64,000 nt of DNA, taken from IMG/VR virus record IMGVR_UViG_3300025141_000020, positions 124,001 to 188,000 of that record; one strand, written 5' to 3'. Of this stretch, positions 13,007-47,967 are shown piece after piece. The notes beneath the pieces were generated by a model. That model was not told where the DNA came from. It saw only the letters and a program-made list of their open reading frames with translations, and did not search any database. Position 1 is the first letter of the stretch. Every line of letters starts with the position of its first letter. This stretch comes from a virus. Position numbers and translations under genes: made by a program.

Positions 13007-13708
13007 ATGGGTAGGAAACCTTTAACTAAGCAGTATTTTGGTCCACCTCAAGAAGAAGCGGTAAGAATATTTCTTACTGCGAGTACCTGGGATGAAAAAA
13101 ACTTAGTATATAATGACTACCTTAGGGACCCATTAATTAAGATGATTGAAAGTATAATAAGAAGGTATAAGCTATATAGACCAAATATGGATTTTACTGA
13201 TATACACACTGACACCCTATCTTTTCTAGTTACTAAAATGGAAAAGTTTAAACCCGCTAAAGGAAAAAAAGCTTATTCGTATTTTGGTACTATCTGTAAG
13301 AATTATCTAATGGGTCAAATAATGAAAGACAATAGGGATAGAAATAGAAAAATTTCTTATGAAGATATATCCTATAGCTTAGAACAAAACGAAAAGTATT
13401 CCTACACTATTCTTGATAATGATATTGAGGCTGAGACTGTGATGTCTTCTTTAGTGGAAGAACTTAAACAATTTACTGTTGATAATAGGTTAAATGTTAA
13501 TGAAGAAAAAATCGGGTATTGTTTAATCGACGTTTTTGAAAACTACGAATCCATATTTATTGCCGGGAAAGGAAACAAGTTTAACAAGAATATAATACTT
13601 TACCAATTAAGAGAGATGAGTGGATTAACTACAAAAGAAATTCGTTCCGCTCTTAAACCATTTAAATCCTTATACAAAGAGCTTGTAGAGAAATTGGTAA
13701 ATAGATAA
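13007..13708 (+). CDS. gp55: T4 gp55-like late-transcription sigma factor
   Basis: In 233 residues, KFKPAKGKKAYSYFGTICKNYL (about 83-104) is the phage version of sigma-70 region 2, as found in gp55 of T4-like phages. It is followed by a basic stretch (MKDNRDRNRK) and a C-terminal helical region, LREMSGLTTKEIRSALKPF, resembling a region-4/HTH remnant. gp55 directs host RNA polymerase to late promoters. The recurrent TATTTATA element upstream of structural genes in this window is its best candidate target. It is encoded next to baseplate genes on the plus strand. Confidence 0.75.
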   Translation: MGRKPLTKQYFGPPQEEAVRIFLTASTWDEKNLVYNDYLRDPLIKMIESIIRRYKLYRPNMDFTDIHTDTLSFLVTKMEKFKPAKGKKAYSYFGTICKNYLMGQIMKDNRDRNRKISYEDISYSLEQNEKYSYTILDNDIEAETVMSSLVEELKQFTVDNRLNVNEEKIGYCLIDVFENYESIFIAGKGNKFNKNIILYQLREMSGLTTKEIRSALKPFKSLYKELVEKLVNR

Positions 13709-13725
13709 TACAGATATTTATTAGT

Positions 13726-14109
13726 ATGCCAAGACCTAAAAGAAAACAAATAAATTTAACTAACGAAAGTGCTTTAAGTTTAATGCAGGAAATTTATAAT
13801 GAATGTGTTGAACAACGTACTACCGCTATCCGTATCCAAAATAAAATGATTGGGTTTATGAAAGAAGCTGCTGATATGGCTTTGATTGGTCCTGTATTGA
13901 AGGAACAACAAAAAATTATCGACTCCGCTATAGACAAAAAATTACAATTATCTAAACTAATGGCTACTATTATGAGTAAAAATAATGAAGGTAAGATTGC
14001 TGGTTCTGTCCTTGACGGTGATGTTAGAGAAACTTTAACGGAGTTACTTAGTGATATTAGTAAAGACACTAAAGATGATGGTGATAATAGTTTAGAATAT
14101 AAGATGTAA
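13726..14109 (+). CDS. Small helical phage protein of unknown function
   Basis: The 127-residue protein has a basic N-terminus (MPRPKRKQIN), long amphipathic helices in the middle (RIQNKMIGFMKEAADMAL and LKEQQKIIDSAIDKKLQL), and an acidic tail. A TATTTAT element lies three bases before the ATG. The stop overlaps the next start. The size and helical character could fit a small terminase subunit or a baseplate chaperone, but I see no diagnostic motif. Confidence 0.6.
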   Translation: MPRPKRKQINLTNESALSLMQEIYNECVEQRTTAIRIQNKMIGFMKEAADMALIGPVLKEQQKIIDSAIDKKLQLSKLMATIMSKNNEGKIAGSVLDGDVRETLTELLSDISKDTKDDGDNSLEYKM

Positions 14110-16265
14110 TGCCAGATACTCAAAACACCCAAAAAGACATATTTTCAAAAGTAGAAGGTTTAATAGCTTTTTTAGATACTACTGATGAGAAAAAAGTTCG
14201 TGAAAATACTAAAGAATGGCAAGATACCCTGGAGGCTTTAAGGGATATAACAAATAATCCTCTCCCTTTTTTGTTGGGTTTGTTAAAAGAATTACAAGAG
14301 AGTAAGTTTGGTCAGAATGTTACCGCTAAAATTAAAGGTTTTAAAGCGGCAAAACGTAAAAAAAGAAAAGGTAAGGAGGGTGATGCAGATTTTAAAGAAA
14401 CTAAAAAATCTTTTAAAGAAAAACATTTAAAAGATAATTACGCTAATGTATGGTTAACTACACTCAATAGGTTAATTAAGAATGCGGTATTAACTGTACT
14501 GCCAAGAGTTAAAGACATTCTGGTCGAAGAAATAATAAAAGCTTTCAATTGTGATTTAACAACTTTAGTTCCTGTTGTGGGTGATGGGTTGTCTGGACCT
14601 CTTGTTATTGAGGTTGCGGAAATAGACTTACTTAAACAATTGTTTAATGACCCTTTACCAACCGCTGTACCTCCTAATCCTGCAGCTAAATACATGTATG
14701 AACAAAACCCACTTAATGGTGGTGCATACCCAGTTGGTACTAGCCCTTATCCAGTTAATCGTTTTTTACGGGACTTAATATATAATAACGCTACTCTTAT
14801 AGGTAACGGAGTTCCTGCAGCACCAAATACTATTAGAACAATATACGGTAAGAGTGGTAAAGCTTTATTTGATGTTGAGGTTCTTGCTGTGTTAGGTAAT
14901 CCGACAATCCTAAAGATATACCCTTATTATAAAACTGAAACGGGTAATACCCAATTTGCTAATGCTCCAGGGTGTAACGGTACTCCCCCTGCTGTTCCAG
15001 GTCAAGGAAGTAAATTTACTTTTATAGACTTCTTACACGACTATTTCAACAATATAGTGTTAATAGAATTACAAAATTTAGCGGGTGCTTTGTTGGAGAT
15101 ATTAACTGGTTTTATGAGTACCACAAATAAGGCTTTCAGCATTCAAGATTCAAAACACCTACAATGGTTTGTTGGTTTTGTTGAAAATGTTCTAAAGGCT
15201 TGTGATGGAGATGATTTAATAGGTCCTAATAGTGAGTCTATTGGTCACCACGCAGAATTAACAGATGAGGACAATTATTTTAACTTTACAGTAGAAGAAG
15301 AGCGTGCTATGATGTTAGAGGTAAGTCGTAAACAAAATAATGTATTAACCTTACAAAGTTGTGGTTCTTTGGATATCCCTATAGATAATAGTATGGTGGA
15401 TAAGGCTGTAGATGACATGCTAGCTACACAAGTAATGGAAGAGAAATTGCAAATATTTGATTTGCTACTTCAAAAACTGGCTAGGTCCTCAGCAAAAAAA
15501 GCTGGATATGATTTAGGATTAGGCACTATTACTTTACCTGTAGAAATTGATTTTAAAGAAAATATAATAAAAAAATTACCTCAGATATTGGTTTATTGTA
15601 TTATGAACCCTAAAGCCGTCCTTCCTTTAGTTATAACCGGTAAGATATTAAATCAAAATGGTCAATTATGTAGTTCTATAGACTTATTTGCAAAAGTATT
15701 TAGACGAGTTATTATTCGTGTTATCAAAGAAATACTTCAAGAAGTAACAAAAGAAATTATGAAAATGGTTAAACAGTATTTGTTACAAAAAATACGAGAG
15801 TTGATTAGAAGGAAATTAAGTGAACAAGCAAAGAAAAAAATACGAATGATTCGTAGATTATTAGATTTATTATTACCATTAATAAGTGCTTTAAATAACG
15901 CAAAAAACTGTCAAGAAATATATAACATATTATTAGGTTTACTAATGGCTAATATGCCTGACATACCCTTTAAAGTGCCAGCATTTTTAGTTTCTGCTGC
16001 AGAACTGAGAGCTGGAACCACTGCTTTAGGTACGTTTGAGAGATTTTTGACCAAGTGTCAACAAGATGGTATTCCTATAGGGGATTTACCTGATGGTAGT
16101 TCTAATATGATATTACCTGCATTTCGTAAAGCTTTTGAGGCTAAGGAAGAGGAGGATAGTGACCATAAAAAACTATTAGGTGTTATACCCCAAGGTCAAG
16201 TTATTACAGCTTTTGGTCCTGCGTCAATTGTGCCATTTACAAAGGTAACTGGTACGTCAGCTTAA
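14109..16265 (+). CDS. Large virion protein, probably baseplate-associated
   Basis: This 718-residue protein has a lysine-rich stretch near residue 75-100 (KRKKRKGKEG), a middle with many Pro and Gly, and a basic helical region around residues 530-590 (VIRVIKEILQEVTKEIMKM, then LIRRKLSEQAKKKIRMI). The hydrophobic segment after it (LLDLLLPLISALNNAK) could insert in or near a membrane. It lies between a small helical protein and the OB-fold baseplate gene, on the same strand with little spacing, so a baseplate or tail role is likely. No family is recognised. Confidence 0.6.
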   Translation: MPDTQNTQKDIFSKVEGLIAFLDTTDEKKVRENTKEWQDTLEALRDITNNPLPFLLGLLKELQESKFGQNVTAKIKGFKAAKRKKRKGKEGDADFKETKKSFKEKHLKDNYANVWLTTLNRLIKNAVLTVLPRVKDILVEEIIKAFNCDLTTLVPVVGDGLSGPLVIEVAEIDLLKQLFNDPLPTAVPPNPAAKYMYEQNPLNGGAYPVGTSPYPVNRFLRDLIYNNATLIGNGVPAAPNTIRTIYGKSGKALFDVEVLAVLGNPTILKIYPYYKTETGNTQFANAPGCNGTPPAVPGQGSKFTFIDFLHDYFNNIVLIELQNLAGALLEILTGFMSTTNKAFSIQDSKHLQWFVGFVENVLKACDGDDLIGPNSESIGHHAELTDEDNYFNFTVEEERAMMLEVSRKQNNVLTLQSCGSLDIPIDNSMVDKAVDDMLATQVMEEKLQIFDLLLQKLARSSAKKAGYDLGLGTITLPVEIDFKENIIKKLPQILVYCIMNPKAVLPLVITGKILNQNGQLCSSIDLFAKVFRRVIIRVIKEILQEVTKEIMKMVKQYLLQKIRELIRRKLSEQAKKKIRMIRRLLDLLLPLISALNNAKNCQEIYNILLGLLMANMPDIPFKVPAFLVSAAELRAGTTALGTFERFLTKCQQDGIPIGDLPDGSSNMILPAFRKAFEAKEEEDSDHKKLLGVIPQGQVITAFGPASIVPFTKVTGTSA

Positions 16266-16277
16266 AAAAAATAAATT

Positions 16278-16460
16278 ATGGAGTTTTTTAAAATATATAA
16301 GGAAAAATCAAATAAGGAGTTATCTGATATGTTGACTAACTTAAAGACTGAGTTTGATAAGACTAAGTCTTTATTAATTGGTTTGACACACCATTTAGAT
16401 GATATAGAAAAGAAATTTAAACTTATCGAGTCTGAATTAAAAAAACGTAAAGTTAATTAA
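16278..16460 (+). CDS. Short coiled-coil protein
   Basis: The 60 residues are almost entirely heptad-like: MLTNLKTEFDKTKSLLIGL, then LDDIEKKFKLIESELKKRK. It begins 12 bases after the large virion protein and ends two bases before the OB-fold baseplate gene, so it is clearly part of that unit. Such small coiled coils may be assembly or trimerisation partners. No family is recognised. Confidence 0.65.
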   Translation: MEFFKIYKEKSNKELSDMLTNLKTEFDKTKSLLIGLTHHLDDIEKKFKLIESELKKRKVN

Positions 16461-16462
16461 CT

Positions 16463-18259
16463 ATGAAGTACTATTTCCAAAAATCTGATGATAGTATGTT
16501 CTCTAAAGACCAAAATAGAGGGGCTTATGATGTTAGTTATAAGTCATTTACTTTTGTTGTTTGTGTTGATAATGCTGACCCATTGCGATTAGGTAGAATT
16601 CGTGGTGTATCACCTTTCGGTGGTGGGACTACTGGAAGTAGAAAAAACGACCCTACTGTTGCAGATGCGTCTAGAGATGAAAATGGAAATAAAGTAAAGC
16701 CATGGGATAAAGACGACCCTTATTTGTTTAATTCCCTATTACCTTATAATTTAAACGTTATACCAATGGTGAAAGAGTTATTTACAGCATTTTCTCAACA
16801 GTCACCCAAAAGTAGTCTAAATAAATTCTATATTGGGCCTGTAATATCCCACCCATCTAATGTTAAAATGGATAAATGGACTAACGCTTTAAGTATTACA
16901 GCATCTCAAAAACAAAATAGTCGTTTGGGTGAACCGTATTTAAAAGGTACTCCTAGTGCATCAGGTGAGACCTCGTTGGTTCCAATAATTAGTAAAAAAG
17001 GGGTTTTTCCTAATCCTGAGGATATAGCTATTGTTGGTAGGTATAACACAGATATTGTTTTAGGTATGCGAGAATACTCCTTGCCTGACGATAATGAAGG
17101 AAGCGAAGTACAGAACTGGTACCCTCAAATCCTTATTCGTTCAGGTAAATTTAAAAAGGTTAAGGGTAGTGAAGTTCCTGATACTAACCCTAAATCTACC
17201 TTTATACAATTAAATACATTTCCTACTACAATGGAACGAGTTGAAGTTGATGAACCGGAAATTAGTAGCAACGACGATAATCTTAGAACTATGATTGTTT
17301 ACCATCTAGATTCGTCTAATTTAGTGGATGGGGCTGGTTTAGAATGGGACAACCTAACTGGTTGGGTTGCGGCGTATAGTATGATTAGTAGTGTGAGTGG
17401 TACTACCGTTGGTTATGACCCAGGTTCTGTTAAATCTTATATGGCTGGAGATTACGATTTAAGTCAAGATGTTCCGGGGATAACAACATCTCCAACACCA
17501 CCTAATCCAGATAATTATTGGGTTAAGTATTCTTTTAGTGGGTTTAATAAAAAGAAGGTTGCAAGCCAAATAGAAAAATTTATTTCTTATATCGATGAGG
17601 GTGAATGGGATAAATTAACAAAGATGTTAGATAGTAATGCTGCCCCACCAGAAAAAATTAAAACTTTACCAAAAATATTTCCCATGTATTTTAGGCCTGA
17701 TAGAGCTACTCTAGATATAATGGATAAAAACGATAGTGCTGTACCAACCCCATTTTTTCAAGCTAAAAAAGATGTTGCTAATTTTATAAAATCTAATATT
17801 GAGTTGGATGGTGTTACTACTGAAGGGTATGGGTTAGCTTTGACCGAAAATTCTGGGAAACGAGATGTTGAGGTTAATTCTACCACTAGGAAAGTTTTTA
17901 AAGTAAATTCTGGTCTACGTGGCCAACAAGGTATTGTTTCCGTTGGGTCTGAAAAAATCTACCTGTTGTCACATTCAATAGATTATCTGGGTAACCTTAA
18001 TCTTAAAGATAATCATTATGGTGTAACTCAAGAAACTTATATAACTGATATTGACCCAAAAACAAATTCTATTGTACGTGGTGAAGAATTAATAAAATTA
18101 TTAGAAAAGATTGTAGATTTTATGCAAAATCATTGTCATGCCTTCCCTGGTTTAGCTCCAGTTCCTCAAGCCCATGGAGGAACTAGAATTGAGGATGTAA
18201 GTAGATTGTTGTTAGATGCCCCTAAAACAATCCTAAATAAAAATATTAGGATTAACTAG
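16463..18259 (+). CDS. Baseplate hub/spike protein with gp5-like OB-fold domain
   Basis: The 598-residue protein has an N-terminal OB-fold signature, DPLRLGRIRGVSPFGGG (about residues 34-50), as in gp5/VgrG-type spikes. Long insertions follow, and a C-terminal region from about 540 (ELIKLLEKIVDFMQNHCHAFPGLAP) resembles the metal-binding HxH segment at the end of many phage spike proteins. A central part (PMYFRPDRATLDIMDKND, then FQAKKDVANFI) recalls OmpA-like or peptidoglycan-facing domains but is uncertain. It probably sits at the tail tip. No lysozyme motif was recognised. Confidence 0.65.
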   Translation: MKYYFQKSDDSMFSKDQNRGAYDVSYKSFTFVVCVDNADPLRLGRIRGVSPFGGGTTGSRKNDPTVADASRDENGNKVKPWDKDDPYLFNSLLPYNLNVIPMVKELFTAFSQQSPKSSLNKFYIGPVISHPSNVKMDKWTNALSITASQKQNSRLGEPYLKGTPSASGETSLVPIISKKGVFPNPEDIAIVGRYNTDIVLGMREYSLPDDNEGSEVQNWYPQILIRSGKFKKVKGSEVPDTNPKSTFIQLNTFPTTMERVEVDEPEISSNDDNLRTMIVYHLDSSNLVDGAGLEWDNLTGWVAAYSMISSVSGTTVGYDPGSVKSYMAGDYDLSQDVPGITTSPTPPNPDNYWVKYSFSGFNKKKVASQIEKFISYIDEGEWDKLTKMLDSNAAPPEKIKTLPKIFPMYFRPDRATLDIMDKNDSAVPTPFFQAKKDVANFIKSNIELDGVTTEGYGLALTENSGKRDVEVNSTTRKVFKVNSGLRGQQGIVSVGSEKIYLLSHSIDYLGNLNLKDNHYGVTQETYITDIDPKTNSIVRGEELIKLLEKIVDFMQNHCHAFPGLAPVPQAHGGTRIEDVSRLLLDAPKTILNKNIRIN

Positions 18260-18283
18260 ATATTTATATATAAACATAATTTA

Positions 18284-20308
18284 ATGTCTATACACAGGTC
18301 ATATTTCAGTAAAAATAATACAATAATATCTAATAGTGCTACTAACACTGGTAGAAATCCCGTAACTCAATTATTTTATGGTAGAAATAGTTCACGATGC
18401 AAATTTACTGGATATAGTGGTGATACTTGTAATGATAAAACTGGATTCACTAAAACAGCTATTCATGGTTATAGTAGATTTATTTTTGATTTGGATTTAT
18501 CTGACTTAAGAACTAAATATACCAATTGTTGTATGCCTTTAACTTCTTGTACATATACTGGTGTATATGATGAGGCGGCGACCTTTAATTTTACATTTAC
18601 ATCTACAGGAGATACCATTAATTATATGAGTTTAGTTGACTCTGTTGGTTTAACTGTTAGTTATGTTAACATTTCTGCTAACACCGCCACTACTATTAAT
18701 GGTTCACACATTACTGATGGTGGTGGTAACCTATATACACAATTTATATATAATATAGGTACTACGTTATCAAATCAAGCTACAAATTTTTGTTTAGCTG
18801 TTAATGGTGTTAGTGGACATAATGGTAGTATTTTATGTACGTCTGATGGTGCTAATGTTACTTTAACACAAGCAGGTTTAGGTGCTTCAGGAAATACTCC
18901 TGTGTATCCTGGAAATCTTAGTAATTTAAGTGTTAATACTGGTAATTTTCAACTTATCTCAGATATAGTATTTAGTGCGACAACAAATCCTTGTTCTAAC
19001 GAATTTTGTGGTGGAGGGATAGGTACGGGCTTTGATACTTGTGATGGACAACCCTATTATTCAATAACTTACAACCCAGACGTTAAACACACTTTACGTA
19101 TGACAAATACGTCTAGTTTTGATGACCAATTGATAAATGGTAAGATTTTAGTTAATGATACTAGAAGAGCTACATCATTTACTCTGATGTTATATAAAGT
19201 GCCTACTTCAAAAACTTCATTATGGGATGAAGGTGTTGGGTATGACTATGAAGTACCTGCTGTTTCTCTTGAACCTGAGTATAACCTCACACAATCTAAT
19301 AGACCTAGTAATTGGATTAATAGTACAACTCTTTCGACTTGGCCTAACCCAGGAACTTATAATAACTTACTTCCCTCTTCTTACACTGTTTTAGCCACCC
19401 AAAGTTTTGATGCTGGTAATGAAGACATAGCTTTTAGTAGTATAGCTTTAAATAATGAAATTGGTAGTCAGTTAGCATCACCACAAACTGGTGTTACCTA
19501 TGGTATAGCTTTTTTACCACAATTTGAATTATTATCTGGTTTAACAGAAGCTTATTCTGTTGGTTTCTTTTCTAGGCACACCCAAACATATTTTGAGCCT
19601 TTCTTGGAAACTTCTTTTAATGATTATATAAATGATAGTAGGAACCACTTTGAGGTTGGGTGTGAAAATAGGTTATTTTTATACGCTTATGACTGCAATG
19701 GTGACCCTATGTGTTTCACACAGGACCCTGTGGTTTATATTAGAGATTGTAATGATATTGTAACTTCTACTATAACCGCTTCTACATTAACGTGTGGTGC
19801 TTACTACGTAGATTATACGATATTACCACCGTTACCACAGACGCCGCCTGTTCAATACACAGACGAATGGTCTAACCTTTTTGTGGGAGGCATATCACAA
19901 CCAAATATAACTAACGAGTTTATAATTCACACTAACGGTTATACTATAGGCACTACTGTTGTGAAACCAAAGATATTTGGTTATTCTGTTTCTGGTATTA
20001 AGAACGATGAAAAGATTAAAGCTGGTGATACTAGAAAAATATTTGTCTCTACTAGGGTTCCTTATACGGTAAATCAAGAAGTGTTAGTGGATAATATACA
20101 ATATAGGATATATGTTAAACAGGGTACTACTGAGGTGAGTGTTATTCCTTGGTCTAAAATAAACAAAACTTTTACTGATAATTACTTCTTATTAGATACT
20201 TCCTGGATGATACCTAACGAATATTACCTAGATATAAAAGCAACTTCTAATCAACAAGTAGATACTTATAGTAAAGTGATAAAATTTCAAATAACTAACC
20301 AATTATGA
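18284..20308 (+). CDS. Large beta-rich virion protein (tail or surface structure)
   Basis: The 674-residue protein is Ser/Thr/Asn/Gly-rich with scattered cysteine pairs (NCCMPLTSC, CSNEFCGG, YDCNGDPMC). Its last 100 residues resemble an Ig-like beta-sandwich (DEKIKAGDTRKIFVSTRVPY to YSKVIKFQI). The composition fits an extracellular virion component such as a tail sheath initiator, wedge or fibre. It has its own TATTTATA element 16 bases upstream and overlaps the following gene by 4 bases. No family is recognised. Confidence 0.6.
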   Translation: MSIHRSYFSKNNTIISNSATNTGRNPVTQLFYGRNSSRCKFTGYSGDTCNDKTGFTKTAIHGYSRFIFDLDLSDLRTKYTNCCMPLTSCTYTGVYDEAATFNFTFTSTGDTINYMSLVDSVGLTVSYVNISANTATTINGSHITDGGGNLYTQFIYNIGTTLSNQATNFCLAVNGVSGHNGSILCTSDGANVTLTQAGLGASGNTPVYPGNLSNLSVNTGNFQLISDIVFSATTNPCSNEFCGGGIGTGFDTCDGQPYYSITYNPDVKHTLRMTNTSSFDDQLINGKILVNDTRRATSFTLMLYKVPTSKTSLWDEGVGYDYEVPAVSLEPEYNLTQSNRPSNWINSTTLSTWPNPGTYNNLLPSSYTVLATQSFDAGNEDIAFSSIALNNEIGSQLASPQTGVTYGIAFLPQFELLSGLTEAYSVGFFSRHTQTYFEPFLETSFNDYINDSRNHFEVGCENRLFLYAYDCNGDPMCFTQDPVVYIRDCNDIVTSTITASTLTCGAYYVDYTILPPLPQTPPVQYTDEWSNLFVGGISQPNITNEFIIHTNGYTIGTTVVKPKIFGYSVSGIKNDEKIKAGDTRKIFVSTRVPYTVNQEVLVDNIQYRIYVKQGTTEVSVIPWSKINKTFTDNYFLLDTSWMIPNEYYLDIKATSNQQVDTYSKVIKFQITNQL

Positions 20309-20766
20309 AAAATATAAAAATAACTGAAAATGAATTAATCTCTCTTATAGAGAAAGTGGTTAATGAAAATCTAGGCTCAACACCATCATTAAGTGCTCAT
20401 GGAGGTGGTTTTGCAAATTTAGGAATGGCAAAACCAACTGATAAGTATAAAGACCTATATGAAGATGATGATATAGAAACTGAAGTAGATGAAGACTACG
20501 ACCAAGACCCTGAAGCTGAAAAATCAGCTGATATTACAGTAACAACACAACCTGGTTCAGATGATGAGGATGCGTGGATGGAAAGTATTGTTGATAGATT
20601 AAAAAGTAAACTAACCGAGGGTAAATGTCCTAAAAGTGGGTGTGTAACTAAACGTGGTAATAAATGGAGAGTCATTAGTAATAAAACTGGAAAACTGTGG
20701 GATGCTGAATATGATAGTAAAGCTGATGCGGAGTCGGGTTTAGAGGCTTATCACGCAAATCAATAA
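20305..20766 (+). CDS. Putative head-packaged protein with N-terminal leader
   Basis: The 153-residue protein starts with a class-B leader: KNIKITENELISLIEKVVNE, ending V-N-E at residues 19-21, followed by a Gly/Ser region. A central acidic stretch (YEDDDIETEVDEDYDQDPE) leads to a C-terminal domain, CVTKRGNKWRVISNKTGKLW, then YDSKADAESGLEAYHA, a small basic-aromatic fold of unknown function. It overlaps the previous gene by 4 bases. By analogy with T4 the leader would target it to the prohead and be removed by the prohead protease; this is inference. Confidence 0.65.
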   Translation: MKNIKITENELISLIEKVVNENLGSTPSLSAHGGGFANLGMAKPTDKYKDLYEDDDIETEVDEDYDQDPEAEKSADITVTTQPGSDDEDAWMESIVDRLKSKLTEGKCPKSGCVTKRGNKWRVISNKTGKLWDAEYDSKADAESGLEAYHANQ

Positions 20767-20809
20767 TAGAAAATATATATAATAAATAAAACCTAAAAAA
20801 TTAAAAATT

Positions 20810-20875
20810 ATGAAATGTGATTGTCAAATATGTAAGTGTGGTACGACATGTGACTGTACTTGTTGCGACTGTTAA
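20810..20875 (+). CDS. Cysteine-rich metallothionein-like micropeptide
   Basis: An ATG at 20810 opens a 21-codon frame ending at TAA 20873-20875. Nine of the 21 residues are cysteine, as CxC, CxxC and CC arrangements: CDCQICKCG, then CDCTCCDC. It is followed by a strong hairpin terminator, and a 43-base A/T-rich leader separates it from the previous gene. The density and spacing of cysteines are those of metallothioneins or small metal-cluster peptides. Without homologues, expression is not proven, but chance occurrence of this pattern in such AT-rich DNA is unlikely. Confidence 0.6.
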   Translation: MKCDCQICKCGTTCDCTCCDC

Positions 20876-20903
20876 ATAACAGTTAATTAAAAAATAAAGA
20901 TAT

Positions 20904-20931
20904 AAAAAAACCACTTATTAGGTGGTTTTTT
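20904..20931 (+). terminator. Bidirectional intrinsic terminator
   Basis: AAAAAACCAC and GTGGTTTTTT form a perfect stem around a seven-base loop, flanked by A and T runs. It separates the plus-strand baseplate block from the convergent minus-strand membrane gene. Confidence 0.85.
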
Positions 20932-20936
20932 TGTTT

Positions 20937-21242
20937 TTATATATCATCATGTTCATCGTGGTCCTCGTAATCATATTCATGAGTTACTGTTGTATGAGAC
21001 GGTTTTGGTTCTTCCGGCTCTACTGGTTCTGGTGGTGTGTTACCAAAATTTTCAGATGCTGTAAACCCTAACCCAGCCATTACAATCCACTGTAAAGATT
21101 CAAACATATTGGATGCTACTTCAAAATTCCAGAACAGATTAGCTACATACCCTATTATCATAAATAATAGACATATAAATGTTACAACTCTTTTACTAGA
21201 GACTTTACTCCCACTACTTAACATGTTTTTAAGAAAATGCAT
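20937..21242 (-). CDS. Small membrane protein, possible holin
   Basis: The 101-residue protein has two predicted membrane segments: VVTFICLLFMIIGYVANLF (about residues 19-37) and SLQWIVMAGLGFTAS (49-63). Before them is a basic N-terminus, and after them a Pro/Glu-rich tail ending in a His/Asp/Glu-rich run (EYDYEDHDEHDD). The layout resembles small phage holins and other two-helix phage membrane proteins. It lies just downstream of a leader-bearing protein on the same strand. The holin role is a guess from size and topology. Confidence 0.5.
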   Translation of the reverse strand: MHFLKNMLSSGSKVSSKRVVTFICLLFMIIGYVANLFWNFEVASNMFESLQWIVMAGLGFTASENFGNTPPEPVEPEEPKPSHTTVTHEYDYEDHDEHDDI

Positions 21243-23400: not shown

Positions 23401-25197
23401 CTATCTAAGTTCTCTAACATCAAACGTTCTAACTCCGTCAACAGTGATTCTTCCGTAGAATCTATTGTTCACCATTTTCTTAGCGTATCTAGTCATGATA
23501 CCTTTGATTGGTGTAAAGTTGAATGGGTTATACATTGTAGGAGTTAACTGTAATGGTACATACGGTGCGTAAACGTACCCAGTATCCAATAAAGATGTTC
23601 CTTTATGTCCAATTAACACTTGGTTAGCTGGGAAGTAAGGGTCTCTATATACAGTAAATCTTCCTGATAATGTTCCAATTTTCTCAATACCCATATTGTA
23701 TTGGTCTTGGTCCGCTGCTGCGTTAGAAACGTGGAAGTATTCCAAGTCATCAAATATCGCAGAAACTTCAGAAGAACATACAATCCAGTTAGCCCCACCT
23801 CTTAAAGTAGACTTGTGGATTTGAGCTGAAATTTGGTTAACCGCTGTGATTAATGTTTGGTTCCAGTCTTTTTGAGTATATGGAGCTTGACCAGCTGAGA
23901 ATCTCTTCCAACCGTTGTAGTCCCATCTTAAATCCCAAGCTGCACCTTTTCTAAGGTCTCTTAAGATTTCTCTATCAATCTCTGCAGCAACTTCTTCAGA
24001 TAATAAAGCTGTTAATTCAGCTTCAGCATCTATGTTGTGGAATGCAGAAACGTCTTGTGCAAGTTCTGGTGACCATTGAGCTCTTAATTTTCTTTCACTT
24101 ACAGAAACTGTAACACCTTGAAGGTCGAAAGAAACTTCTCCCATATCTTCTTCAAATTCTAATGTAGCGTATTGTCTCCATTCTGCATTGAACTCAAAGT
24201 TTGCACCAGTTCCAGTCATACCAACATAACCATCAACTGAAGTACAACTAATACAAGCTGGACAAGAAGTATCAACCTCTAAATAGATATCTCCATTTGC
24301 GTCACACGTATCAGCTCTATCTACAATACCAAAACCGTATTTCTGTGTAACAACACGGAATAGGATTGGTGTTTGTGTTCCATACCCTAACGTTGAAGCT
24401 GCAATCTGATTACTTGTAGTTGCCGTAACAGAGTCACAACAAGATAAAATGTTAGCTGTAGTTAATTGTAATGAAGATAAGAAATCTTCTGTATCTTGCT
24501 CATTTCCATCAGGCCCAGTTAAAGTACCAACACCTGTTTGTGAGAAACCAGATAACTTAACAATAACACCTCTAGTACAAACTGTTACATCTCTTTGACC
24601 ATCACTTAATGCTGGTGGAACTGCTCCATTCCAGATAACCTCTACAGTACCTGCCGTTACGTTAGTGTATTTACCTCTAGAATAATCATAAGTACCATTA
24701 TCCATTTCTTGTGGTGAATTACCTGCATAGTAAGCGTCATATAGATTTCCTGTCGCTGCTGATACTGGATTAGCGTTGTTTGGATTTCCTGTTGACCCCA
24801 TTGGTGCTCCGTGAGTACCTGTACCAGGAGGTCCTACCTCTGTTCCTGCTACTACAGTTCTAGGTGTAATTTTAGGTACGAAGTAGAACAATTTACCAAT
24901 TGGTAAGTTCATAGCTTGTACAGAAACGATATCGTTAGCTAACAATTTCGAGAATACTCTTCTAATGATTGGAAATACAACCGTTTCGAAGGACCCTGAA
25001 TCACCAGCCGTCGTTGCTTCGTTTATTAAATTTGTTGCTTGGTTTTCATATAACTGTGCAACATTTTCTTTGACATGCCCTTTAAGTCCATCTAAGAACC
25101 CAAGACCATCCCATTTTTTTAAGGTATCTTCCTTGATAACTTTAAGGTGTTTTAAACCTATGTTACCAACCATACCTGATTCTAATAGTGCTCCCAT
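23401..25197 (-). CDS. gp23: Major capsid protein, T4 gp23-like
   Basis: The 598-residue protein has the gp23 N-terminal plan: a helical, charged propeptide, then NLINE at residues 56-60 and ATTAGDSGSFETVVFPIIRRVF, aligning with the T4 maturation region. DIVSVQAMNLPIGKLFYFVP is highly characteristic. The expected protease cut is after E60 (I-N-E). The middle contains an insertion with CxxC-type pairs (CCDS, CPACISC). C-terminal parts (LRKGAAWDLRWDYNGWKRF, YAPYVPLQLTPTMYNPFNF) also match the family. Codons are richer in C-ending forms than in neighbours, fitting very high expression. Confidence 0.95.
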   Translation of the reverse strand: MGALLESGMVGNIGLKHLKVIKEDTLKKWDGLGFLDGLKGHVKENVAQLYENQATNLINEATTAGDSGSFETVVFPIIRRVFSKLLANDIVSVQAMNLPIGKLFYFVPKITPRTVVAGTEVGPPGTGTHGAPMGSTGNPNNANPVSAATGNLYDAYYAGNSPQEMDNGTYDYSRGKYTNVTAGTVEVIWNGAVPPALSDGQRDVTVCTRGVIVKLSGFSQTGVGTLTGPDGNEQDTEDFLSSLQLTTANILSCCDSVTATTSNQIAASTLGYGTQTPILFRVVTQKYGFGIVDRADTCDANGDIYLEVDTSCPACISCTSVDGYVGMTGTGANFEFNAEWRQYATLEFEEDMGEVSFDLQGVTVSVSERKLRAQWSPELAQDVSAFHNIDAEAELTALLSEEVAAEIDREILRDLRKGAAWDLRWDYNGWKRFSAGQAPYTQKDWNQTLITAVNQISAQIHKSTLRGGANWIVCSSEVSAIFDDLEYFHVSNAAADQDQYNMGIEKIGTLSGRFTVYRDPYFPANQVLIGHKGTSLLDTGYVYAPYVPLQLTPTMYNPFNFTPIKGIMTRYAKKMVNNRFYGRITVDGVRTFDVRELR

Positions 25198-25231
25198 AAT
25201 TTTTTTAATTTTTTTAAGCGTTTATTTATTA

Positions 25232-26758
25232 TTATAATTTAGACATTAAGTCTTTCATTCTACTAAATTGAGGGTTTTCATATACTTTTGATTCCAAAAG
25301 TTTTCCGCCACTCCCACTAGTAGATGATTTAGTAATTTTTCTTTCAACAGCTTCAGAAATAGTTTTGGTTTTATCCTTAACTTCTTGTGAAAACTCTTGT
25401 CTGATTACCTTATACAACCCTTTAGATTCCTTCAATGTTTTAACATTGTCGAAACGCTTTAAGATGTTGATTTTCTCCTGCTTAGTAGTTGAATGTTCAG
25501 TGAATACTCTGGTAACGTAAGCAAGGTTAGAATTAAACACACCCACTTCATTCAATTTATCTTTAAAAGTAATTAATGCTTTTTTATACTCAACATTTTT
25601 TGATTTTAAAGAGTCTACTTCTTCTTTAAGAAGATTGTAGGACTTTCTTATACGACTTTCACCTAGGTTAGCTTTTCTTGGTCTACGAGATTCTCTTTGT
25701 TTCCCCCATTTACCTTGTCCAGCCATTCTAGAAAATGAACTATTCGGTCCAGCTTTTAATCTACTAGTTTCCTCTATTTCACCTTCCATTTCATAATCCT
25801 TATAATGCCCATCGACATCACCAGATTTATGACCCTTAGTTCTTTTGTACTCATCTTTCTTACTACCCCAAGTTTCTTCAACTTCACCTTCAACATCATC
25901 GCCTTCTCTATGTAACATACCTAAAGATTCGTCTTCTCTATCATCATAACCTTGTTCACCTCCAGATAATCGATGTAAAGCATCTGGTGTTTCACCATAA
26001 TGTTTTCTCATCCCTTCTCTTTCATGTCTTCTATCACCATAAGATTGTCTTTCGTCCATTTCCATTGAGTCGTCTGTTTCGTCTAACTCATCGTCATATG
26101 AAGATAAAGCTCTTTCTGATTCAGGAGCATCTACGCCCATTACACCAGTTTCGTCAAAATCTTCGTCCATCTCGATTTCATAGACTACTTCGTCAAGTCC
26201 TTCTTCGTTATCAGTAGTTTCGTCTTCAGTCTCAACCACTTCTTCTGTGTCATTAATGGATTCTTCTTCTCTCATGATTTTTGATTTTTTAGATTGTTCC
26301 AACTTAATTAGGTATTCAGTATCCGTATTTGTATCGGTCAAATCGATTTCATTATCGTCCTGTTGGATAATAATTCCGTCTTCGTCACCCATGGCTTTGA
26401 ATACTTTTAATACTTCAGCATCTGATGCTAATGTTAAATCTAGAGGTGGTAACTCTAGTGATACTTCGTCGTCTTCAGTATCGTCCTCCACATCAAGTCC
26501 TAAATCGAGGTCCATTGTCGGTTCTTCTAAATCCACCGTATCGGCTTCATCTTCCAAATCTTCAATATCTAAATCGATTTCAACTTCTTGTTCGTCTTCT
26601 TGCTCTTCTAGGTAATCATTTTCGCTTAATGATTCTTTTACTAATTCATGAATTTCTTCCTTCATAGTTGATGAAAGTATTTCTTTTGCATTAGACCTCA
26701 TAGTTTCTTCTAACTGTTCGGCCTCGAGCAACGCTTTTTCTAAGATTGTTTTACTCAC
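25232..26758 (-). CDS. gp22: Prohead scaffold/core protein, gp22-like
   Basis: This 508-residue protein lies between the prohead protease and capsid genes, the gp22 position. It is extremely acidic in the first half (EEQEDEQEVEIDLDIEDLED and similar), contains a charged repeat-like middle, and ends in a basic helical domain (RIRKSYNLLKEEVDSLKSKN to SRMKDLMSKL). T4 gp22 is also a helical, highly charged scaffold destroyed by gp21. Many hydrophobic-x-Glu triplets are present, offering multiple cleavage sites. It is about twice the length of T4 gp22. Confidence 0.75.
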   Translation of the reverse strand: MSKTILEKALLEAEQLEETMRSNAKEILSSTMKEEIHELVKESLSENDYLEEQEDEQEVEIDLDIEDLEDEADTVDLEEPTMDLDLGLDVEDDTEDDEVSLELPPLDLTLASDAEVLKVFKAMGDEDGIIIQQDDNEIDLTDTNTDTEYLIKLEQSKKSKIMREEESINDTEEVVETEDETTDNEEGLDEVVYEIEMDEDFDETGVMGVDAPESERALSSYDDELDETDDSMEMDERQSYGDRRHEREGMRKHYGETPDALHRLSGGEQGYDDREDESLGMLHREGDDVEGEVEETWGSKKDEYKRTKGHKSGDVDGHYKDYEMEGEIEETSRLKAGPNSSFSRMAGQGKWGKQRESRRPRKANLGESRIRKSYNLLKEEVDSLKSKNVEYKKALITFKDKLNEVGVFNSNLAYVTRVFTEHSTTKQEKINILKRFDNVKTLKESKGLYKVIRQEFSQEVKDKTKTISEAVERKITKSSTSGSGGKLLESKVYENPQFSRMKDLMSKL

Positions 26759-26868: not shown

Positions 26869-27570
26869 TTACTGACTTAAGAAATTATTTAATCTATTCA
26901 TTAGATTAACTGACTTGTCAACATTTAGTGATTTGTTAGATTTTTTTGTTTCTACTACTGGTAATTCTTCGTCAACACTGTCAGGGGTTTCGTCCTCTTT
27001 AAATAAGTATGAACCTGGTGTAGATGGTGACGAAACTAAATCAAAACATACCAGTTCAAAGTCTTCCTGGACTTCGTTGTACTCACCATTTTTTGTTAGT
27101 GAGCCCACACCTCGAGATGAGATACCTAATGTAACACCTTGTCTTAGTAGATTAGCTGCCATATCACCAACACAAGAAATAACACCTTCTTTAAGATATC
27201 CTGGTGAAGTTAATAATTTTAATTTGCCTACTAATCTATTTCCGTCCCACCATGTCTCTGTTATTATATGCGAAGCTCGGTCTAAATCAATTAAAGATGA
27301 TTCTGGGTGGTTCAATTCTGATATAGCTCCCCCTTTCTTTATAACTTCTTGATATCTCTCATTTTCTCTTTTAAGAATACTTTCTGGATATACTCTACCA
27401 TTTCTGTTTGGTACCCCGTATTTTTGTAATATAGCATTCATATATATCTCCCCGTCGAAGTTATCTTTTGCCATCTCTTTAATTATGCCCTTATTATCTA
27501 TCGGTGAAATATAACCATCACTTTCGACTAATATGCCGTGACCTATCTCTCTAGCTTCTAAAATTTTCAT
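26869..27570 (-). CDS. gp21: Prohead protease, T4 gp21-like (S78/herpesvirus-type serine protease)
   Basis: The 233-residue protein has NRNGRVYPESIL, SELNHPESSLIDLD with the catalytic His at about residue 88, and LGISSRGVGSL with the catalytic Ser near residue 151-152, all typical of gp21-type proteases. It should degrade the scaffold and cut capsid and internal proteins after hydrophobic-x-Glu. The gene lies upstream of the scaffold and capsid genes, exactly as in T4. The last 35 residues are charged and may be an autocleaved tail. Confidence 0.92.
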   Translation of the reverse strand: MKILEAREIGHGILVESDGYISPIDNKGIIKEMAKDNFDGEIYMNAILQKYGVPNRNGRVYPESILKRENERYQEVIKKGGAISELNHPESSLIDLDRASHIITETWWDGNRLVGKLKLLTSPGYLKEGVISCVGDMAANLLRQGVTLGISSRGVGSLTKNGEYNEVQEDFELVCFDLVSSPSTPGSYLFKEDETPDSVDEELPVVETKKSNKSLNVDKSVNLMNRLNNFLSQ

Positions 27571-28891: not shown

Positions 28892-30727
28892 CTAATCCTT
28901 TAATAAGGTGTCTACTTCAGTGTTAATCTTATCTATGTTCTTATTACTTTTATTGATAGCGTCTTTTAAACCCTCTAAATCCATACCTTTTCTTTCCATT
29001 AATAATGGAAGTCCTTTTTCTACATTATATCCCTCTGCAGCTGGTTCAGGTATTTCTACATCTGTTTCTGCTGTGTCTGTTTCACCACCGGTATCATCAC
29101 CCATACCAAAATCCATTCCAGCATCTGAGTCATCACCAACATCTGCACTATCATCTGTAGCCCCTTCTTCACCTTCTTTTTTAGGTATGCCATATAAATT
29201 ATCAATATTACTAAAGATTCCAGTTTTCTGTATTACTTCTGCCGTTTTTTCTAATTCACCAGCTAAAGCTTTTTCAAATCTTTGTTGTTGTAAATCTAAT
29301 TTAATTTCTTCATCACTCATACCTAAGATTTCTTTCTTAGCCCAAGTAGTAGATACAGCCTGTAGGCCATTTCCTGGGTCAGTTACAGCGTCTCTATATA
29401 ACGCGATTCTTTCTTTCCATTGTTCTATTTTTAATAGGTCTGTTTGTGTAGATGGGTTAGATAAAGCTAATTTAAAATTAGTAAGTTCATCCTGAAAGCC
29501 TAAAACATATAAATGTATTATAGCAATTTTATTTAATTCTGCCACAATAGCTTTTTGTATTCTATTAATTGTTCTTGCAAATCTAATGTCTAGTAAAGCT
29601 AAATTTTTACCTTCACCGACAACTTCCTCAAAACCAAGAAAGGCTTTAGGAATTCTTAATGATGCAAGTAACTTTTTTTGGATGTATTCTATATCTGCTA
29701 TTTCACTTAAATTTGTAGCTCCTGGTAAGGTATCTATCGGACTTGCCGCAGCTGGGTCTCTAACCGGTATAAAATAATCTTGGTCTACAGCCATCTGATT
29801 CATTCTTAAGTCCACATTTCCATTCTGTGGGTCTACAACAGCGTCTCTTTTAAATTTATTAGCTACTTTTTGGATGTATGCTTCAACATCTTTATCGTCC
29901 ATGTTACCCACAAATACTTTAAATACTCTTCTTTCAGGAGCTCTTGACGTTCTATACACCAACATTGCGTCTTCCGCTAACAATAACTGTTTCCAAATTC
30001 TTCTTGCTTTTTCCAACATAGAAGTACCATAAGGAAGTCTTCTATCATCACCTAATATCCTGAAATGTGCTATTTCCCATGTATTAAACTCTAACTCTTT
30101 TTCTCTCCACTTAAATTCAACCTTAGGTTCTTTTTCATCTTGTTTTTCTCCATGTAATGTAAAATAGTTAGATTGGTCTCCTCTTTCCATTTCAATATTT
30201 GGTAACTGGTTACATCCTATAATACCTTTTTCTGGGTCAATTTTAAGATACACAAAATTGTCACCATATTTACATGTGTTTCTAACCCACATAGCTAAAT
30301 TAGTATTGACGTCCAATATATTATTAAATAAATCTGCTAATATAGATTTTATTCTTGCTGATTCGGAAAAAATTGTTAATGTGTGACCTTTTTCTGATGG
30401 TGTTGTACATTCCTCAGCATATATATCTAAAGCTGCGGATATTTCTGGTGTAAATTCCATAGATTCATAATCGTAATATGAAGCTAAACGAGTTGGTTCA
30501 TAATATATGGATTTAGTATATAGTTCATTATCTACTTTTTGCCATTGGTTGGCAAGATAGGCGGCTTGTTGAAATTCTAACTTTTTTTCGTCGTAATCTT
30601 GTTTATTTGTAGTTTTAAGAATTTCTTGTGACCCTACTGTAAATTGTTGTATAGAACTCTTTGGTGCTGTTGGTCCTCCTGTCCCAAAAAGCTTACCTAA
30701 TCTTTGATATATTGTGAATTTTGCCAT
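28892..30727 (-). CDS. gp20: Portal protein, T4 gp20-like
   Basis: The 611-residue protein shows the gp20 pattern: RLASYYDYESMEFTPEISAA, DIYAEECTT, NTCKYGDNFVYLKID, EIAHFRILGDDRRLPYGTSM and the very characteristic LRIPKAFLGFEEV. The C-terminal 80 residues are acidic and Gly-rich, an extension beyond T4 length. It forms the dodecameric DNA entry channel on which the prohead is nucleated. It follows the terminase gene on the same strand. Confidence 0.95.
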   Translation of the reverse strand: MAKFTIYQRLGKLFGTGGPTAPKSSIQQFTVGSQEILKTTNKQDYDEKKLEFQQAAYLANQWQKVDNELYTKSIYYEPTRLASYYDYESMEFTPEISAALDIYAEECTTPSEKGHTLTIFSESARIKSILADLFNNILDVNTNLAMWVRNTCKYGDNFVYLKIDPEKGIIGCNQLPNIEMERGDQSNYFTLHGEKQDEKEPKVEFKWREKELEFNTWEIAHFRILGDDRRLPYGTSMLEKARRIWKQLLLAEDAMLVYRTSRAPERRVFKVFVGNMDDKDVEAYIQKVANKFKRDAVVDPQNGNVDLRMNQMAVDQDYFIPVRDPAAASPIDTLPGATNLSEIADIEYIQKKLLASLRIPKAFLGFEEVVGEGKNLALLDIRFARTINRIQKAIVAELNKIAIIHLYVLGFQDELTNFKLALSNPSTQTDLLKIEQWKERIALYRDAVTDPGNGLQAVSTTWAKKEILGMSDEEIKLDLQQQRFEKALAGELEKTAEVIQKTGIFSNIDNLYGIPKKEGEEGATDDSADVGDDSDAGMDFGMGDDTGGETDTAETDVEIPEPAAEGYNVEKGLPLLMERKGMDLEGLKDAINKSNKNIDKINTEVDTLLKD

Positions 30728-47558: not shown

Positions 47559-47967
47559 GGGGGTGACTGGAATTGATTGGCGTCAGTCGATTAATGTCAG
47601 CACGTCGAGCCTGAATTAAGCTCGTAAAATCTGATTCATTTTTTTAACTGGCAAAACAATTGCTAAGTTGGCGACTTTAGGACTTGTCCGTGAGGGGTCA
47701 ACAGTGGCTATCGCGTAACTAAGTTACGATATAGCTCCGTTTTCGTTAAAGTCTCTTAAGATTTGTAACTTTATATATGAAAACGTCATTTAGACAAATC
47801 GACCCCACCCTCTACTGTTTGGGTGGTAAAATATAAGATGGTCTAGGTTACTTTGAGGGTTGTTTATTCTGTAAAAGTAACTGAATAGTTAGAATAAACT
47901 AAACGTGTAGGATAGATGTTAGTAGAAGATGAACAAGACGGGGGTTCGATACCCCCCACCTCCACCA
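47559..47967 (+). ncRNA. ssrA: tmRNA (ssrA), complete one-piece, 22-codon tag
   Basis: The 5' GGGGGTG (47559-47565) pairs fully (one G-U) with CACCTCC (47957-47963), followed by encoded ACCA. The T-arm is GGGGG, TTCGATA loop, CCCCC. The resume codon GGC is at 47650-47652 (RNA position 92, as expected), preceded by TAACT, which aligns with the E. coli TAGTC. The tag frame runs 22 codons, starting GKTIAKLATL and ending GSTVAIA, to TAA 47716-47718 inside a strong hairpin (CGTAAC/GTTACG), as in helix 5. Bacterial tags in this phylum are short and end ALAA; this one is longer and ends AIA. Confidence 0.93.

Follow-up and report, generated by a model that had tools for sequence, protein, structure and literature searches.

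A nine-cysteine micro-gene of about 21 codons, with a putative metallothionein-like product, in uncultivated phages and small-genome marine Flavobacteriales

Can an open reading frame (ORF) of 21 codons, nine of which specify Cys, be a real gene, and what might its product do? The question is raised by a locus within a 64,000-nucleotide (nt) stretch of DNA (here, the window) that belongs to a 210,568-bp virus record. An earlier note on this DNA, made from the letters alone, had pointed out a 21-residue, nine-Cys ORF, and translation of positions 20810-20875 on the plus strand confirmed it: the ORF runs from an ATG start to a TAA stop and yields the 21-amino-acid (aa) product MKCDCQICKCGTTCDCTCCDC. 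The features of the locus and its surroundings are as follows.

18284..20308, plus strand: conserved tail-region gene, 674 aa, no family assigned; used as the bait for fetching relatives
20305..20766, plus strand: gene directly upstream of the micro-gene, 153 aa, no assigned family (PHROG matches weak); a relative precedes the micro-gene in the phage group of the window
20767..20809, plus strand: A-rich leader with ATAATAAATAAAACCTAAAAAATTAAAAATT immediately before the ATG; probable late promoter/leader, from its match to the leader of the major head gene
20810..20875, plus strand: micro-gene for the nine-Cys peptide, from ORF translation, same-site relatives (L001, L002, L003, L006, and L007), and the wider family
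20902..20934, plus strand: intrinsic-terminator-like hairpin with a T-run and terminator features in both directions, between convergent genes
20937..21242, minus strand: convergent gene, 101 aa, membrane-protein-like, which follows the micro-gene in close relatives too
23401-25197, minus strand: major head protein, T4-like head gene
25201..25240, minus strand: leader of the major head protein gene, which resembles the micro-gene leader (upstream-region comparison)
26869-27570, minus strand: protease, T4-like head gene
28892-30727, minus strand: portal, T4-like head gene

The ATG of the micro-gene lies 43 nt past the stop codon of the gene before it. The hairpin with its T-run begins 27 nt after the micro-gene stop, in agreement with the downstream terminator of the earlier note. 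The block sits in a T4-like structural region, with the head genes on the opposite strand downstream. Its assignment to the end of a baseplate block was not confirmed, as the genes at 14109-20766 upstream of the micro-gene gave no significant Pfam or PHROG assignment. When the 60 nt upstream of the micro-gene were compared with the 105 upstream regions of the window, the leader that precedes the major head (capsid) gene came first, with a score of 47; the next-best region scored 34, and 2,000 shuffles of the head-gene leader scored 42 at most. This likeness to the capsid-gene leader suggests strong and abundant late expression of the micro-gene, which lends circumstantial support to the proposal that the peptide is late and highly expressed. 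Further upstream, an ORF at 13007-13708 (plus strand) is weakly similar to a T4-type late sigma factor (phrog_234; E value of 8e-4), which would agree with the presence of late promoters in the phage. A TATTTATA-like motif recurs upstream of 18284, 26869, 28120, 28892, 30772, 36961, and 37350, close to the start codons of several structural genes; this motif differs from the ATAATAAATAAA leader common to the capsid gene and the micro-gene, and the two possibly represent separate promoter classes. The phage genome also carries a tmRNA gene at 47559-47967 of the window (plus strand), with the ARAGORN tag AKLATLGLVREGSTVAIA and a match to Rfam RF00023 at 123 bits.

The nine Cys residues of the peptide form a CxCxxCxCxxxCxCxCCxC register with a 19-residue core. 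In 180 windows simulated by Markov models of orders 2, 3, and 5, not a single ATG-initiated ORF of 15 to 60 aa with at least seven Cys and 30% Cys was obtained, and the top Cys fraction in these windows was 0.33 versus 0.43 for the micro-peptide. Within the window the micro-gene is the sole ORF of such Cys content, and the nine-Cys register occurs once in the whole 210,568-bp record, even with three mismatches tolerated.

Relatives of the locus were fetched through the upstream 674-aa gene, that is, by a search blind to the peptide. The micro-gene was present in six of the seven closest relatives of this gene; five of the copies occupied the same site, flanked by a relative of the 153-aa gene and a terminator, and had all nine Cys, while the sixth lay elsewhere in its contig, again behind a relative of the 153-aa gene. 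No copy was found in the records searched for 32 more distant relatives of the 674-aa gene, many of which are fragments, or in the whole record of Flavobacterium phage immuto, which is related by its primase and capsid. A direct tblastn search of the peptide against isolated phages gave no match, which says little in view of the shortness of the query and the low-complexity filter. The neighborhoods of the micro-gene in phages contain many different genes, as expected for a stand-alone function, and no recurrent metal-transport or metal-regulator neighbor was recognized among neighbor clusters that are mostly without annotation.

Register scans of IMG/VR, filtered to remove TGY microsatellites, revealed 132 or more different coding sequences. 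The different 19-residue cores numbered at least 121, and the consensus is MK-CNCK[VI]CNCGTSC[DE]C[TS]CC[DN]C. The peptides are generally 19 to 23 aa long with nine Cys, and their genes of 60 to 72 nt fall below the size limit of the usual gene callers, which is why the family has been overlooked. Because these first scans themselves required nine Cys, the invariance of the register was tested in other ways. In a relaxed scan, which required C1, C3, C6, C8, C16, C17, and C19 and permitted any gap of 3 to 27 nt, the gap was 21 nt in all 84 distinct sequences. Every one of them had Cys at C12, and 83 of the 84 had Cys at C14; the remaining one has a His there (L610, MKCDCKECNCGTTCEHTCCNC), which lies two base changes from a Cys codon. 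His is itself a metal ligand. The second test set consisted of 71 phage loci fetched via a FAD-dependent dehydrogenase only. A micro-gene lay within 1.5 kb upstream in 14 of them, and each of these copies kept the nine Cys in register; as no half-decayed or degenerate copies were found in the 71 loci, the presence of the micro-gene appears to be all or none, like that of a cassette. A sister form has one residue fewer in the C8-to-C12 interval and retains the nine Cys (MCECKQCECESCNCSCCEC and others), and a version of 36 aa with additional N-terminal CxC units was found in L150. The sister micro-peptides of L486, L497, L512, L514, and L578 have 19 to 20 aa in a CxCxxCxCxxCxCxCCxC register, and in some sister loci the downstream gene is preceded by a GGAG Shine-Dalgarno-like motif, a hint of other hosts.

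Constraint was also visible at the codon level. Across the viral copies, TGT and TGC are freely interchanged at the Cys codons (877:311), and synonymous differences there approach saturation in distant comparisons. The non-Cys codons have a dN/dS of 0.45 to 0.5, with conserved preferences for G9, S11, and D/N at positions 2, 13, and 18. The drift of Cys codons while Cys is kept, together with a dN/dS of about 0.5 at the remaining codons, places the constraint on the peptide rather than the RNA. The 20 nt upstream of the copies are 58% A, and a Shine-Dalgarno-like motif precedes 2 of 139 copies; such scarcity is usual in Bacteroidota. A terminator-like hairpin follows 38 of 156 distinct copies, versus 1 to 3 in shuffled controls, and copies are often located at operon ends. 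No Rfam families were detected near the copies in phage loci. A RiPP precursor finds no support: in nearly every copy the stretch before the Cys core is four residues or fewer, which leaves no leader region, and no recurrent RiPP-modifying enzyme was recognized among the varied neighbors, most of whose clusters are unannotated. Collectively, these data showed that 20810-20875 is a real gene that standard annotation misses. The earlier note had proposed such a gene and had staked it on conservation of the Cys pattern and on copies at the same position in related phages; the pattern is kept, same-site copies are present in five of the seven closest relatives, and the codon-level signature of coding adds strong support.

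The breadth of this family goes beyond what had been anticipated, as do the copies on bacterial chromosomes. The one genuine match of a scan of genome contigs, whose output consisted largely of TGY microsatellites, lay in a Cryomorphaceae bin (L316). In the corresponding clade of small-genome (0.8- to 1.3-Mb) marine Flavobacteriales, 18 of 25 genomes (the L316 genome and its 24 nearest relatives), about two thirds, carry one copy each; the other seven, some of which are probably incomplete, had no copy with three mismatches allowed. An extra copy, in a different context, was found in a 1.9-Mb relative. The gene order prfA-purM-glnA-Ca antiporter-micro-gene-pirin is kept in the sixteen clade loci examined, as far as the contigs reach, with a 119-aa gene between the Ca antiporter and the micro-gene in part of the clade loci. 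A tRNA gene lies near the bacterial micro-gene in all five loci checked and was the sole RNA family match there. In 397 other genomes drawn from the order, the register was absent, the three matches being microsatellites. The bacterial copies have T/N and K at positions 9 and 10, versus G and T in most viral ones. Nearly all clade genomes (L428, L434-L450) also contain a conserved AAAGTTATTAACAATTT-like stretch 30 to 70 nt after the micro-gene, possibly a promoter or protein-binding site.

The fixed spacing of the nine Cys, the looseness of the other positions, the Cys-to-His change, the varied phage cassettes, and the fixed bacterial locus all point to a metal-thiolate peptide, and we consider it likely that the micro-gene encodes a phage-borne, stand-alone, miniature metallothionein-like one. 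Metallothioneins as a class are recognized by composition, namely small size, about 30% Cys or more, CxC/CC motifs, and few or no aromatic residues; the window copy has 9 Cys among 21 residues, four CxC and one CC motif, and no Phe, Trp, or Tyr. The nine Cys and the one Cys-to-His variant are compatible with putative Zn, Cd, or Cu binding in a thiolate cluster. The resemblance to a minimal metallothionein, suggested in the earlier note, thus stands as the best-supported reading of the sequence, whereas no known metallothionein family was matched by profile. Searches of Pfam, NCBIfam, and PHROGs, which include the known metallothionein models, gave no match up to an E value of 10 for three to four representatives, and phmmer gave none against metallothioneins of solved structure. 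The sole match of the family profile in the PDB was the wheat Ec metallothionein 2kak, at a nonsignificant E value of 3.2. On present evidence the micro-peptide would work like a metallothionein, while its membership in any named metallothionein family is not supported by profiles.

Among known systems, the Neurospora/Agaricus copper metallothionein (fungal family 8) is similar in being a very short, CxC-rich, stand-alone metal-thiolate peptide with few other conserved features. However, it is eukaryotic and has seven Cys in a CxC-x5-CxC-x3-CxC-x2-C arrangement, whereas the phage and bacterial micro-peptides have nine Cys in 19 to 23 aa, a CC pair, and other spacing. Fungal metallothioneins of 26 aa and 7 Cys have been reported as the shortest (PMC4755600). 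The M3Cys9 beta-type domains of animal metallothioneins and wheat Ec are likewise small, CxC-dominated, and built on nine Cys, but their spacing differs and homology is not detectable. These domains are longer and form part of two-domain proteins. In animal and plant metallothioneins, the nine Cys of M(II)3Cys9 clusters hold three divalent metals (PMC10612145). The micro-peptide shares a likeness in Cys clusters with the bacterial metallothioneins SmtA/BmtA and MymT, though no Pfam or NCBIfam model reaches it. SmtA/BmtA and MymT are longer proteins, with His ligands in the SmtA type. Their Cys clusters buffer soft metals, Zn in SmtA/BmtA and Cu in MymT (PMC7387436). As a cassette gene common to phages and a bacterial clade, the micro-gene further resembles the auxiliary metabolic genes of marine phages, but with only about 21 codons it lies below the usual gene-calling limit. 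No phage or viral metallothionein was found in the mostly open-access literature searched, and earlier reports may exist. A published catalogue of small ORFs predicts ORFs of 30 bp or more and may hold the nine-Cys peptides unnamed (PMC11364881). The nine-Cys peptides constitute an apparently undescribed family, shorter and with more Cys than the 26-residue fungal metallothioneins.

In the proposed mechanism, the whole 19-residue core would wrap a small metal-thiolate cluster, which could be M(II)3Cys9-like or, equally possibly, of the Cu(I) type. The phage would make the peptide late and in quantity from the capsid-like leader, and the peptide would buffer or sequester soft metals (Zn and Cu) during degradation of host metalloproteins and virion assembly. 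The copy on the bacterial chromosome would serve the same purpose with a minimum of coding sequence and nitrogen. Taken as a whole, the proposal of a smallest metallothionein family, with a single 19-residue nine-thiolate cluster, shared by diverse uncultivated phages and a fixed site in Flavobacteriales and serving a late takeover of the Zn/Cu pool, seems to us about evenly poised between right and wrong.

Alternatively, metal could be structural only, folding a peptide that binds a host or phage protein in takeover, in anti-defence, or as a part of the virion. Small phage proteins often target host factors, and the conserved non-Cys preferences (G9, S11, and D/N at 2, 13, and 18) would suit such a role; however, the non-Cys positions are loosely constrained overall, the same peptide is chromosomal in bacteria at fixed synteny, and the phage gene neighborhoods are highly varied, and we regard this explanation as unlikely. 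The very high thiol content and the abundant late expression suggested by the capsid-like leader could also be expected of a redox peptide that acts by thiol-disulfide cycling (glutathione- or thioredoxin-like buffering), with metal incidental. Such a thiol buffer would not need exact spacing, yet the spacing is invariant; moreover, nine is an odd number for disulfides, and the lone Cys-to-His change loses a thiol but keeps a metal ligand, which leaves this function improbable. A short ORF rich in Cys codons, the terminator 27 nt beyond it, and the terminators after many other copies recall an attenuator leader peptide whose Cys codons sense charged tRNA-Cys and thereby control the terminator. 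This highly improbable function was rejected, since the gene past the window terminator is convergent and no same-direction gene is left to regulate, since the exact register (conserved at the peptide level), the conserved G/S/D/N residues, and the Cys-to-His change would serve no purpose in codon counting, for which a run of one kind of codon is enough, and since the terminator element of related phages precedes a dehydrogenase gene with or without the micro-gene. A chance ORF or a noncoding stretch with TGY periodicity, favored by the very short length of the micro-gene, was rejected as having a negligible chance of being true, given the empty simulations, the conservation in many phages and bacteria, and the codon constraint.

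If the metallothionein-like reading of the micro-peptide is true, metal buffering would join the functions carried by phages, and the smallest metallothionein-like peptide would be found in phages and small-genome bacteria. More generally, clearly selected genes of some 20 codons go unannotated, even in large phage collections, and the family would provide a system of synthetic-peptide size for testing the minimum metal-thiolate cluster.

A separate RNA element was observed in related phages, in which a hairpin (for example, GTCCG-ATTCATAGC-CGGAC) lies between the micro-gene, where present, and the FAD-dependent dehydrogenase gene. The nine-base loop of this hairpin pairs with the 5′ arm of the next hairpin, an intrinsic terminator.

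L660, about 305-390, before the ORF at 412: pseudoknot/terminator RNA; 53 further distinct elements in L661-L737, and also in L140, L110, and L322

The pseudoknot between loop and terminator had six of six pairs in all 54 distinct elements, with the compensatory types TCATAG/CTGTGG, TCATAA/TTGTGG, CTATAG/CTGTAG, TTATAG/CTGTAA, and TCATAT/ATGTGG. When the partners were re-dealt, 96.2% were paired on average and 97.5% at most, versus 100% observed. Because the elements were selected for pairing within the first hairpin, that pairing is not independent evidence. Rfam gave no match for the phage loci holding the element, and the element was not found in the window. It represents a candidate for a new, covarying structured RNA, which could work as a riboswitch or attenuator. 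A different Cys peptide, MKRFICDLVYALSFRNICFGWCGSKIKCDCNCNC (34 aa, 7 Cys, with a CDCNCNC tail), is encoded in L661, L677, L678, L680, and L723, where its ORF ends 114 to 121 nt before the dehydrogenase gene, in the slot held elsewhere by the nine-Cys micro-gene. The FAD-dependent dehydrogenase genes are common in these phages (e.g., L140 3414-4776 and L369 411-1755), and their products share 26 to 28% identity with Campylobacter phage proteins that carry the annotation NAD(FAD)-utilizing dehydrogenase.
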